In this document: positions 10,907 to 26,464 of the stretch, in pieces
Position numbering within the stretch: position 1 is the stretch's first letter
Layout: the number at the start of each line of letters is the position of its first letter
Assembly (NCBI GenBank): GCA_016202645.1
Contig: JACQOF010000107.1
Span: forward strand, 1 to 26,464
DNA length: 26,464 nucleotides
Direction of reading: 5' to 3'
From: a bacterium
Lineage (GTDB): Bacteria > Lindowbacteria > 2-12-FULL-62-27
Position numbers and translations under genes: made by a program
The notes under the pieces: generated by a model
Seen by the model: only the letters and a program-made list of their open reading frames with translations
Databases searched by the model: none
What the model was told of the DNA's origin: nothing

Positions 10907-13360
10907 TCAGCGCTTCATGGAGATGGCGTTCTGGACCAGTTCGTCCGCCATCCGGATGGCGCGGCTGGAGAACTGGAACGCCCTCTGGAAAAAAATCAGA
11001 TCGGTGAGTTCTTCCGCAAGGTTGGCATTCGAGTATTCAAGTTTTTTCGGCAGGATCGTCGCGATGCCGGCGCCGATCTGCTCCACCGACCGGATCGTCG
11101 CCGCGCCAGACGCGCTCGACACCTGGAAACTGGTGTCGTCCACGCGGTTTAAGCCCCCTGGATTGACGAACCGTCCAAGCACGATCTGCGCGAGGGTCCG
11201 CTGGGTGCCGTTGGTGAAGACCCCCGTCAGTTTTCCCAGGTCGTCAAACCCGATCTGGGTCAGGACGCCTTCGAGATTGCCGTCGTAGGTTATGGTGTCG
11301 AGGTCCGACGGCCCGAAGATCTGCTGGATCTGCGTGAAGGTTGGGGTGATGGTCAGGGTATCGATCGTTGAATTCGGCGTTACGGTAATATCGGGTACTG
11401 TCGATGAGGCGGTGAGAAACTGCCCGTTCGCGTCGAACTGGACGTTTCCGAAGTATCGGTTGCTTTCTCCCGCCGCCGCGTTCGACCGAGTGAGGGTCGT
11501 CGCGTCAAAACGGTACTTGGCGCTGAATTGCGTCAAACTCGTTATTTTCGCCGAAAACGTCGGAGAGAACGTGATTTTGTTGTCGACAGGACGGTAGACT
11601 CCGATGGAACTTTCGAAGGTCGCGGTGCCGGCGGCGATGGCGGAGCCCGTGGTGAAGACCAGCCCCGGGATTTTTTCGTTGCCGTTTTCAAGAGAATAGG
11701 TGGTATTCGCTGTGAGCCCGCCCGCCGCGATGGTGCCGTTGTCGGTGGCGACGGTTTGTCCGGCCGGCGTGAACGTCCAGCTGCCGCTGCCGTTGGCGTT
11801 GATCGTGAGCGCAATCGTGCCGCTCAAGTCCTGGGTCCAGTAAGATCCCCGCACACTTTCCGGCTTGATGTTGCCCCCCGTATCGGTCTTGACCACTGAT
11901 TTCGCCATCGACAGGGTCGCGTTATTCGACACGGTCTTGACCGTGGTGTCGTTGGGGTCCATCTTGGCGTAGGTTGATATCTGTTTGATGCCGCCGGGTA
12001 AGGTTGTGACGCTCGTGCCGGCGAATGTTTCTTCGGTCAAGGCGTCCACCATGACGCCGTACTCGTTGTTCTGGACCTGCTTGAACACCGTGGTCAGCGT
12101 GTGCTGGGTCGTGGGGCTGGTGTCGTCGTAAAATGGCGTCACAATCCCCTCCGCGTCGCCTTCGTGCTTGGTGTCGAAAACCAATGTCCCCGCCGTCAGG
12201 GCCGTGCCGGCGGTTTTCTTCAGGATCACGCCGGGAATGACGTTGCTGTTCGTCGAATCGGCGGCGGCAAAGGTCCCGGATCCCGTCTCGCTTGCAAATT
12301 CGCCGCCGCCCGGCACAAAGGACCATTTGAATGTCCCATCCGCGGCGGTATTGATCGTCACCCTTCCGTCCTTGCGATTCCCCAGATAGACGCCTTCGAC
12401 CGACCCGATCACCGTGCTGTTGCTGGTCACGTCGTAGGGTCCTACCAGGGCCGTGAAGGATCCGGCCTGGAGGGCCGAGACGTCGAAGGTTCTGAAGGTC
12501 ACGCCCGGGACAAAGGTATGGTCCTTGTTCACTTTCACGGTGTTTGCCGCGAAGTCCGCTGTGTTGCCCGGGTCGGCGATGGTCTGGCCGACTTTGAGGA
12601 ATTTCCAGGACCCGGACCCGTCGGCGTTCCAGGAGACGGTGAGAACACCGCGGTCCTGGTTGTTGTTGAAGGATCCCTTCGCGCTGGCCAGCTGGAAATT
12701 GCTGTTGTTTTGCATGAGGGAAAATTGATATTCGGGCTGGGCCGAGTCGAGCGTGACTTTCAGGCTGTAGGTTTTGGTCTCCCGCGCCTCGTCCTTGGCC
12801 GCCGGATCGACCGTGAGGTCCGTCACGGCGGCGGTGTTGACGACACCCGTCGCGTCGGCAAGATACCCCTGCACGATCCTGCCGCTGCCGGTGTCGACCA
12901 GCCGCGGAAGGACGGTGTAGGTCGGCAGTTCCTGAAAAAAAAGGACCTGGCCATTGGCCGTAAAGGGATTGCCGCTGCCCGATGAAACAACGCCGGCGTC
13001 GAAACCGAAATTCCCGGCGCGCGTGAAAAACTGCCGACGGACCTCCGGCAGATGCGCGTCCTTCAGGACAAAAAACCCGTCCCCCTGGATGGCGAGGTCT
13101 GTGAACGACTGGGAGTCCTTGACGGGGCCCTGCCGGAAAAGCGTGTCGATGCTCTGAAGGTCCGGGCCGTGCCCGGTCCGCATCGGATTGGTTGTCTCGG
13201 TGCCGACCTGGTCGCTTCTCGAGAAAAGGTCCGCAAAGGTCGGCCGCTGGGCGCGGTAGCCGATGGTATTGGCGTTGGCGATGTTGTTCGAGAGCACATC
13301 AATCCCGAATTGCTGGGACACCGCCCCGTTATAGCCGATGTAAATCGCTCGATCCACCAT
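10907..13360 (-). CDS. flgE: Flagellar hook protein FlgE, unusually long with internal repeats
   Basis: The subunit of the extracellular hook, exported by the flagellar type III system; 817 aa against about 400 in enteric bacteria. The N-terminus has the axial-protein motif VLSNNIANANTIGYRAQRPT (23-42) and DLAIQGDGFFVLK (88-100). The C-terminus has ANLAEELTDLIFFQRAFQFS followed by RAIRMADELVQNAI. These conserved ends build the D0/D1 coiled-coil core. The extra length is in the middle, where three related ~75-residue modules appear at about 235-307, 320-397 and 503-585. Each has an N-x-x-G-(S/T)-x-x-W-x-F strand followed by an (I/V)-P-G-(V/L)-x-(F/L) strand and ending A-G-(S/T)-x-x-(F). They probably form surface domains on the hook. 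FlgF or FlgG are less likely at this length. Confidence 0.9.
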   Translation of the reverse strand: MVDRAIYIGYNGAVSQQFGIDVLSNNIANANTIGYRAQRPTFADLFSRSDQVGTETTNPMRTGHGPDLQSIDTLFRQGPVKDSQSFTDLAIQGDGFFVLKDAHLPEVRRQFFTRAGNFGFDAGVVSSGSGNPFTANGQVLFFQELPTYTVLPRLVDTGSGRIVQGYLADATGVVNTAAVTDLTVDPAAKDEARETKTYSLKVTLDSAQPEYQFSLMQNNSNFQLASAKGSFNNNQDRGVLTVSWNADGSGSWKFLKVGQTIADPGNTADFAANTVKVNKDHTFVPGVTFRTFDVSALQAGSFTALVGPYDVTSNSTVIGSVEGVYLGNRKDGRVTINTAADGTFKWSFVPGGGEFASETGSGTFAAADSTNSNVIPGVILKKTAGTALTAGTLVFDTKHEGDAEGIVTPFYDDTSPTTQHTLTTVFKQVQNNEYGVMVDALTEETFAGTSVTTLPGGIKQISTYAKMDPNDTTVKTVSNNATLSMAKSVVKTDTGGNIKPESVRGSYWTQDLSGTIALTINANGSGSWTFTPAGQTVATDNGTIAAGGLTANTTYSLENGNEKIPGLVFTTGSAIAAGTATFESSIGVYRPVDNKITFSPTFSAKITSLTQFSAKYRFDATTLTRSNAAAGESNRYFGNVQFDANGQFLTASSTVPDITVTPNSTIDTLTITPTFTQIQQIFGPSDLDTITYDGNLEGVLTQIGFDDLGKLTGVFTNGTQRTLAQIVLGRFVNPGGLNRVDDTSFQVSSASGAATIRSVEQIGAGIATILPKKLEYSNANLAEELTDLIFFQRAFQFSSRAIRMADELVQNAISMKR

Positions 13361-23019: not shown

Positions 23020-23337
23020 CTAGATCAAATCCAGAGAAATTCGCAGGGCTTCATTGAGGGTGGGCATGAGCGGAGCGGGGACGATGCCGATCCTGGATTT
23101 GAGATGGAACTGGCGGATGGTGAAAATATAGTCGGCCTGCACCTTGGTTTTAACCGGTAGTCCGGATCCCTCCAGCAAAACTTCGTTTGGATATATCCGG
23201 TCAAGACGCTGGGACGTACAGCCGGCCAGAATCACGTTGACTCCCTCCCGGTTTCTCACATCCGGCGAGACCACAACTCCCGGCCGGAATTTGCCGTCCG
23301 GAAAACGGACCTTGTAGATTTCTCCCCGTCTTACCAT
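23020..23337 (-). CDS. mazF: MazF/PemK-type toxin (endoribonuclease)
   Basis: A 105-aa protein of the MazF/PemK fold, a sequence-specific mRNA interferase. MVRRGEIYKVRFPDGKFRPG and VVVSPDVRN form the conserved first strands with R-G-E/D-I-x and R-P-x-V-V-V-S. VKTKVQADYIFTIRQFHLKS corresponds to the S-x-V-x-x-D-Q-I-R-T-V block, although the usual catalytic serine or threonine and D-Q are altered (T and A-D), so the cleavage activity is not certain. The C-terminal helix TLNEALRISLDL is typical. It overlaps the antitoxin gene by 7 bp (ATGGTAA), indicating translational coupling. Confidence 0.85.
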   Translation of the reverse strand: MVRRGEIYKVRFPDGKFRPGVVVSPDVRNREGVNVILAGCTSQRLDRIYPNEVLLEGSGLPVKTKVQADYIFTIRQFHLKSRIGIVPAPLMPTLNEALRISLDLI

Positions 23338-23561
23338 GGATAGGAGCCAAGATCCGCCGCTGTTTCGGCCTGTATTTCGGCCGCACGGTCGGCCAGGGGT
23401 TTCTCCTCCCGGTATTTCTGCGCCAGGGCGCGTCCAATGCGCATGGACCGCAGCGCCGCCAGGGCGGCCCGGATGGCCTCCGACTTCGACCCATATTCGC
23501 CCGCCAGCTCATCAAGCAGCCGGGCGTCCTGCGCCTGCAGGTAAAACGACGTCTTGGGCAT
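23331..23561 (-). CDS. Ribbon-helix-helix-type antitoxin
   Basis: A 76-aa protein from ATG 23561. The N-terminal KTSFYLQAQDARLLDELAGE is a single beta-strand followed by helix, then YGSKSEAIRAALAALRSM, the ribbon-helix-helix dimer motif. The charged C-terminal tail (KYREEKPLADRAAEIQAETA) is where such antitoxins wrap the toxin. The longer frame from 23612 is rejected because AAGGAGG lies 9 nt before the 23561 ATG and the promoter and operator fall in between. Expected to repress its own promoter, alone and more strongly with the toxin. Confidence 0.85.
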   Translation of the reverse strand: MPKTSFYLQAQDARLLDELAGEYGSKSEAIRAALAALRSMRIGRALAQKYREEKPLADRAAEIQAETAADLGSYPW

Positions 23562-23578
23562 GGGATGATCCTCCTTTT

Positions 23579-23599
23579 TATACTCTAATAGAGAGTATA
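23579..23599. promoter_or_regulatory. Palindromic operator of the toxin-antitoxin operon
   Basis: TATACTCT (23579-23586), AATAG, AGAGTATA (23592-23599): an 8-bp perfect inverted repeat with a 5-nt centre. It overlaps the -10 hexamer and ends 17 bp before the antitoxin ATG, the expected place for autoregulation by a ribbon-helix-helix dimer. Confidence 0.75.
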
Positions 23600-23620
23600 A
23601 AAAATACCACAAAATGTCAA
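23592..23620 (-). promoter_or_regulatory. Promoter of the toxin-antitoxin operon
   Basis: On the minus strand, TTGACA (23615-23620), 17 bp, TACTCT (23592-23597). A shifted TATACT gives a 15-bp spacer. Unlike most promoters in this window it is followed by a normal leader and a strong Shine-Dalgarno AAGGAGG. Confidence 0.65.
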
Positions 23621-23948: not shown

Positions 23949-23984
23949 TCAGGGGTTGCGTTCATTTGAGCTGACTGAAAGGGG

Positions 23985-25004
23985 GTGACGGTGGTGCAGA
24001 TGGTGTTCGGATTCGGGATGATGTTTGTCGGTGTGTTCGTCGCCATGATCCTTGAGCATATCCACTTTGCCATTCTTTACGCGCCCACCGTCTTCGCCCT
24101 AATCCTCGGCGCGGTGGTAGGGGGCTCGATGATCAGCCATCGGCCGGAGGACATTACGGGCGCCGTCAAAGCCGCTTTCAGCCGTGACATCCGGCATCCG
24201 CCAGAAAAACTGCTGGAATTTGCGAATCTGTTTGACGCGGCTGGCCGATACGCGTCGGCTGCGGGGTGGATCGGGCTGATGCTGGGGGTCATTCACGTAT
24301 TGGGAAGCATCGAGGAAGCCGGGGGCGACATCGGGAAACTGGCCAGTGGCATCGCGCTGGCCATGATGGCGCCCTTCTTCGGGCTGCTCTGCAGGTATTA
24401 TTGGTTCATGCCTCTGAAGAACAACCTTGAGCGCAAGGCGCGATTGGCAGTCGAATCCTCCGGCACCTTAGGCGTCGGGGTCTCGGAACCCTTGAATCGG
24501 CCCATGGCCCAGGTTTTCGTGGGAGTGTGCGCTTTCATGGGAGCCACATTTCTGCTCCTCCTGTTATCCATGGCCGCAATGGCGTTGTTCGATTTCTTTT
24601 CCAATGATCGCGCGCCCCGGCGGGTCGCAGTGCAGTCCGTAACGGACACCGGCGCATCCGCCGCACGGCCCTTGGACACGTTCCTGCTGGGCAACAAGCG
24701 CAATCCCAATTTCAGAATCGTCCTCCGGGACGGCCAAAACAATCGGCGGACGCTGACCTGCGCCGTCTATCTCGGTTTCTCGCGGGATTACAGCTTGCAC
24801 GGGCCGGCATTCTTCGACGAACTCCGCGACCGCACGCCGATGCTGAGGGAGATCGTCATCCGGACCCTGGGATCCAAGACGCCGGATGAACTTCAAGTCG
24901 GAAACTTGGACACCTTGGAAGATGAGATTCTGTTCAAGATCAACGCCACCCTCGATCGCGGAAGCGTCAGCGACGTCATCTTCAGCGAATACATCATCGA
25001 GTAA
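23985..25004 (+). CDS. MotA-like membrane module fused to a FliL domain
   Basis: A 339-aa predicted inner-membrane protein. Residues 1-150 follow the MotA/TolQ/ExbB plan: membrane helices at about 6-22, 30-49, 93-108 and 121-141, with LGAVVGGSMISHRPEDITGA after helix 2 and GLMLGVIHVLGSIEEAGGDI then GIALAMMAPFFGLLCRYYWF in helices 3-4. That block aligns without gaps to the E. coli MotA segment around HALGS to ISPLA. The torque-generating cytoplasmic loop is cut to about 40 residues from about 120, the Pro173 equivalent is Ala, and the Pro222 equivalent (FMPLK) is kept. A fifth helix (about 176-200) leads to a periplasmic FliL domain: LREIVIRTLGSKTPDEL and LEDEILFKINATLDRGSVSD then VIFSEYIIE, the diagnostic FliL tail. 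GTG 23985 is the outer start; GTG 23994 or ATG 24000 fit the Shine-Dalgarno spacing better. No motB is adjacent. Confidence 0.8.
   Translation: MTVVQMVFGFGMMFVGVFVAMILEHIHFAILYAPTVFALILGAVVGGSMISHRPEDITGAVKAAFSRDIRHPPEKLLEFANLFDAAGRYASAAGWIGLMLGVIHVLGSIEEAGGDIGKLASGIALAMMAPFFGLLCRYYWFMPLKNNLERKARLAVESSGTLGVGVSEPLNRPMAQVFVGVCAFMGATFLLLLLSMAAMALFDFFSNDRAPRRVAVQSVTDTGASAARPLDTFLLGNKRNPNFRIVLRDGQNNRRTLTCAVYLGFSRDYSLHGPAFFDELRDRTPMLREIVIRTLGSKTPDELQVGNLDTLEDEILFKINATLDRGSVSDVIFSEYIIE

Positions 25005-25773: not shown

Positions 25774-26464
<691 letters not shown>

Follow-up and report, generated by a model that had tools for sequence, protein, structure and literature searches.

A stripped MotA membrane module joined to a FliL domain in single-frame genes of Lindowbacteria

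We describe here a single gene of Lindowbacteria in which a MotA-type membrane module, stripped of a large part of its cytoplasmic loop, is joined in one chain to a FliL domain. The window, that is, the whole stretch of DNA analyzed, comprises 26,464 bases and constitutes contig 85 of a 2.9-Mb genome which is about 82% complete. Its fusion gene occupies one open frame of 339 residues (positions 23985 to 25004, forward strand), with translation, coordinates and frame as given in an earlier note on this DNA. Together with two relatives, labelled G001 and G002 and recorded as Candidatus Lindowbacteria RIFCSPLOWO2_12_FULL_62_27 and Candidatus Lindowbacteria isolate nzgw232, the window's genome forms a sample of three different genera. 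The earlier note had suggested looking for the same architecture in related genomes, and both relatives indeed carry the same single-frame fusion at 44% and 36 to 39% identity, giving three out of three Lindowbacteria genomes examined.

While the parts were already known, their union appears to be new: in the portion of the openly licensed literature that our search covered, we found no description of a MotA-FliL fusion, and it is this link between a stripped MotA and FliL that we regard as the novelty. In profile searches of about 820 distinct genomes from outside the Lindowbacteria (383 across the domain, 45 from a phylum whose FliLs are the nearest, and 398 from a flagellated phylum of large size), the matches listed included separate MotA or FliL proteins only and no fusion of the two; as these lists end at weak scores, a very divergent one could have escaped. 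A contig scan with the single fusion protein as query returned no relatives; an alignment query picked out the relatives' fusions. An assembly artefact joining two genes is excluded by the presence of the same single-frame fusion in two independently assembled genomes.

Domain architecture and genomic setting of the fusion

Pfam profiles recognize both halves of the protein above their cut-offs. MotA_ExbB matches residues 60 to 154 (E 3.7e-11; 43.3 bits versus a cut-off of 22.9), and FliL matches residues 241 to 338 (E 1.1e-9; 39.2 bits versus 24.6), so that the FliL profile match past residue 200 is present as predicted; a match of MotA_N to residues 8 to 63 (E 3.6e-4) stays under its own cut-off. 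Across the three fusions, the bit scores for the FliL family PF03748 are 39.2, 42.7, and 34.9, with a gathering score of 24.6. Sequence matches in NCBIfam and the PDB likewise assign the first half to MotA/PomA and the second to FliL.

For a view of the fold, an AlphaFold2 model was computed from a three-row alignment. Given its pTM of 0.46 and mean pLDDT of 71.6, no meaning attaches to how the halves are placed relative to each other, but each half is informative by itself. The model contains helices at residues 2-24, 29-51, 54-65, 73-110, 116-159, and 174-208, followed by the beta/alpha fold of FliL. In this predicted model, residues 28 to 163 resemble PomA (8zyv; Z 16.4, 2.6 Å over 132 residues) and residues 227 to 339 resemble H. 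pylori FliL (7sgn; Z 15.1, 1.6 Å over 102 residues), with Vibrio FliL (6ahq) and stomatin as further Foldseek and VIA-align matches of the FliL domain. The four-helix MotA-type module and the fifth helix leading into FliL, both recognized earlier from the sequence alone, are thus borne out. The ExbB/TolQ proton channels show a distant fold likeness only (Z about 7.8 to 8, versus 16.4 for PomA), and an ExbB/TolQ identity was rejected on this far weaker match and on sequence matches that point to MotA/PomA only.

Along the forward strand, TM1 and TM2 of the MotA module (residues 1-51; 23985-24137), which correspond to the first two predicted helices, are followed by a shortened cytoplasmic loop (residues 52-72; 24138-24200), delimited by alignment to the MotA of the same genome, and by TM3 and TM4 (residues 73-163; 24201-24473), delimited by identity to that MotA and by the PomA/MotA fold match. 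A cytoplasmic linker and TM5 (helix 174-208; 24474-24608) come next, supported by the model, by hydropathy and by alignment to the TM segment of Lindowbacteria FliL. Beyond a low-confidence periplasmic linker (residues 209-226; 24609-24662; pLDDT < 50 at residues 207-229) lies the periplasmic, SPFH-like FliL domain (residues 227-339; 24663-25001), to which the profile and fold matches apply. The FliL layout of a TM helix and then a periplasmic SPFH-like domain is therefore present, its TM being the fifth helix, with the others preceding it. A topology with the FliL domain in the periplasm, which the earlier note had put forward, can be inferred from alignments, trees, and fold matches alike.

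The annotated start codon, a GTG at 23985, is overlapped by the ribosome-binding-like sequence AAAGGGGG (23978-23985, forward strand, read directly). Judged by the spacing from this site, the GTG at 23991 or 23994 is therefore more likely to be the true start. A promoter and terminator scan found nothing above chance.

Each of the three Lindowbacteria genomes has one ordinary motA adjoining one motB, one fliL beside fliM and fliN, and fliG; the standalone genes that the earlier note had asked about are accordingly all there. With this ordinary set kept, the fusion is an addition, and torque does not depend on it. No dedicated second motB for the fusion was found in the three genomes, whose sole motB adjoins the normal motA. 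Nor does the fusion have a conserved neighborhood, as the three genomes offer three different settings, all outside the flagellar clusters. In the window, its neighbors are mfd, a MazF/CopG-like pair and, at the contig end, a 16S rRNA gene (25774-26464). In G001, they are CBS-domain genes and a gene that we take, by eye, to be glgC; in G002, a presumed membrane TPR-like gene lies upstream and a presumed recA further downstream, both also named by eye.

Several other loci deserve mention. Close to the fusion on its upstream side, the window has a PemK/MazF-like toxin gene paired with a CopG-like antitoxin gene (23020-23612, reverse strand). The window also encodes a lone FlgE/F/G-type hook or rod protein of 817 amino acids (10907-13360, reverse strand; Flg_bbr_C, Flg_bb_rod), which sits outside the flgD-flgE-fliL-fliM cluster. 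The normal fliL gene is split across two contigs (L084 3′ end, L046 5′ end) whose ends overlap at 96% (227/236 bases), probably reflecting strain variation that broke the assembly. The window's genome also has a third, diverged FliL-like orphan of 157 amino acids (L045:16-489, reverse strand), which scores 23.8 bits with Pfam FliL and so narrowly misses the cut-off of 24.6. In both relatives, second FliG_C-domain proteins are encoded outside the main cluster (G001:C17:19704-20018; G002:C327:2980-3249).

Missing torque parts and origin of the two halves

Compared to the MotA of its own genome, the fusion lacks about 62 residues of the cytoplasmic TM2-TM3 loop, including the LAEKARREG segment. 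In known MotAs, this loop holds the part that contacts FliG, and its loss had already been noted from the sequence. The C-terminal tail of MotA is also missing from the fusions. Moreover, the TM3 proline, presumably equivalent to E. coli Pro173, is replaced by Ser91 here and by Phe and Met in the relatives' fusions, and the TM4 threonine, which we take to be E. coli Thr209, by Pro130 here and by Pro and Ile in the relatives, whereas the genomes' own MotAs keep both residues. The earlier note was thus right about the loss of the proline and wrong about the substitute, for which it had given Ala. Its view that this is not an ordinary motor is strengthened by the lost TM4 threonine and C-terminal tail and by the lack of a MotB of its own.

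In light of established MotA genetics, the loss of loop, tail, and TM3/TM4 residues should abolish ion-coupled torque; most likely, the MotA part of the fusion neither conducts ions nor generates torque. What remains in common with MotA/PomA (PF01618 with PF20560) is the four-helix membrane fold and the TM3-TM4 sequence; unlike those proteins, the fusion has gained a fifth helix and FliL and has no motB partner gene. It shares a TM helix and a periplasmic SPFH-like domain with FliL, from which it differs in that the MotA module replaces the short cytoplasmic N-terminus (which carries a KKKK motif in Lindowbacteria FliL) and that the gene lies outside the fli cluster. Since defining MotA features were tested and are absent, the fusion is by profile a FliL-domain protein, MotA-derived yet outside the MotA stator subunits.

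To place the MotA module, a tree was built on the TM columns shared with the fusion, with loop columns removed. The three fusions and loop-less short forms from G002 make up one clade (support 100/99) on long branches, joined to Lindowbacteria MotA (100/99), and the loop-less MotAs of other phyla fall elsewhere. A tree that retained the loop columns placed the fusions with these mini-MotAs, a kinship that was rejected as a gap and long-branch effect, since it is gone on TM columns. In the FliL tree, the module joins Lindowbacteria FliL (100/100 against other phyla), although the fusions are not recovered as a single clade there, and TM5 aligns with the TM segment of Lindowbacteria FliL. Relative to its own-genome counterparts, the MotA module is about 33% identical over residues 6 to 78 and 54% over residues 82 to 152, making TM3-TM4 its best-kept part, and the FliL module is 49% identical over residues 229 to 339. 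Based on the two module trees and the TM5 alignment, we consider it well supported that the fusion arose in a Lindowbacteria ancestor when a motA copy duplicated within this lineage was linked to an almost complete duplicate of fliL.

G002 further encodes two proteins composed of a MotA module plus TM5 without FliL (L042:4655-5308 and L042:9049-9687, both reverse strand) and one four-helix MotA module alone (L043:6398-6865, forward strand); these short forms fall among the fusions, a pattern that a later loss of FliL would produce. Loop-less MotA-like orphans of 140 to 165 amino acids also exist in unrelated bacteria (L081:7674-8156; L082:4059-4556; L083:1095-1520, reverse strand). Such mini-MotAs (G146, G141, G056) share the cytoplasmic loop loss of the fusion and lack FliL. 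As they branch with other MotAs on TM columns, loss of the loop has apparently occurred repeatedly, by convergence.

We also compared identities between modules and ordinary proteins in the three genomes, which allow 6 possible pairings. Over 151 shared columns, each MotA module is closest to the MotA from the genome that encodes it (61, 49, and 53 identities; sum of 163, the best of the 6 pairings, versus a mean of 137 for mismatched ones). The FliL module shows no own-genome preference (191 versus 185.5 identities). In addition, a 5-residue insertion in the periplasmic TM3-TM4 loop occurs only in the fusion and the MotA of G002; its letters are unlike in the two, which speaks against the loop having been copied recently. 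The pattern suggests that MotA and fusion meet the same partner, a weak hint at co-assembly given that three genomes would yield it by chance in 1 of 6 cases. Partial gene conversion could also account for the match.

Possible roles at the flagellar motor

FliL arcs or rings encircle the periplasmic MotB linker, with 4 FliL for each C. jejuni stator (PMC12222027). FliL alleles that retain the N-terminal and TM region and lack the periplasmic domain stop motility, and this region acts on motor output (PMC10127578). The most economical mechanism, and our best explanation at a little short of an even chance, is a non-torque, MotA-derived anchor and oligomeriser, which would bring FliL domains to the stator and act there as a scaffold or modulator. 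After duplicates of motA and fliL had been joined in the Lindowbacteria ancestor, the MotA part would have lost ion conduction and torque along with its FliG-contacting loop, tail, and key TM3/TM4 residues. The retained membrane fold would probably serve as anchor and oligomeriser, presenting FliL domains in the periplasm. The fusion may then join or neighbor MotA5-MotB2 stator units and supply further FliL to the ring that encircles the MotB neck, by which stator anchoring or output could be tuned. The roles proposed earlier, namely, stator adaptor, stator-recruiting ring subunit, and non-torque scaffold, fit the evidence as candidate roles.

Several points count against an anchor at the stator. 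The gene belongs to no flagellar operon, its neighbors differing in all three genomes. Furthermore, the MotA pentamer rotates around MotB in current models, and a FliL domain covalently tied to it would have to rotate too or block rotation. The own-genome match of the MotA modules comes from three genomes and may reflect gene conversion, and the FliL tree does not unite the three fusions. That the fusion is a torque-dead MotA paralogue in mixed or separate pentamers, which carry a covalently attached, perhaps five-fold ring of FliL on the motor, strikes us as possible, if rather doubtful.

The orphan loci with their non-flagellar, non-conserved neighbors are what one would expect of a non-motor FliL paralogue, acting as an SPFH-like scaffold of some other membrane complex with the MotA helices as a mere membrane platform. 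The resemblance of the FliL fold to stomatin/SPFH proteins and the orphan loop-less MotA modules without FliL in G002 and other bacteria point the same way. We nevertheless deem this explanation unlikely: both halves come from the lineage's own motor genes, the MotA module tracks its own MotA, and all three genomes are flagellated. Quite unlikely, in our estimation, is an inhibitory subunit, a brake or dominant negative whose loop-less MotA part would insert into MotA pentamers or compete for MotB, leaving fewer working stators, with FliL as the motor address. It would accord with the loss of torque and ion-path residues alongside retained TM3-TM4, with the lack of a dedicated MotB, and with the link between the FliL N-terminal/TM region and negative control of motility (PMC10127578).

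Long branches, the orphan location, and the shortened FliL-less copies in G002 might be taken as signs of an accidental or decaying, functionless fusion, but with an intact frame and an architecture kept at 36 to 44% identity across three genera and independent assemblies, this, like an assembly artefact, is highly improbable. A functional stator with a covalently built-in FliL ring has the retained MotA fold in its favor and is hardly credible, given that loop, tail, TM3 proline, and TM4 threonine are lost in all three genera and normal motAB is present.

Our preferred reading, a non-torque MotA-derived anchor carrying FliL to the stator, touches on the way FliL is kept at the stator and on whether FliL rotates along with MotA. 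A natural MotA core tied to FliL, with the torque parts gone, offers a fixed geometry for modelling and testing, and it exemplifies the reuse of a stator subunit as, probably, a non-driving part. If the pentamer with a FliL ring is real, it would open a new class of accessory subunits derived from the stator. Stator and FliL would then be linked in one chain, in a phylum without any studied motor.
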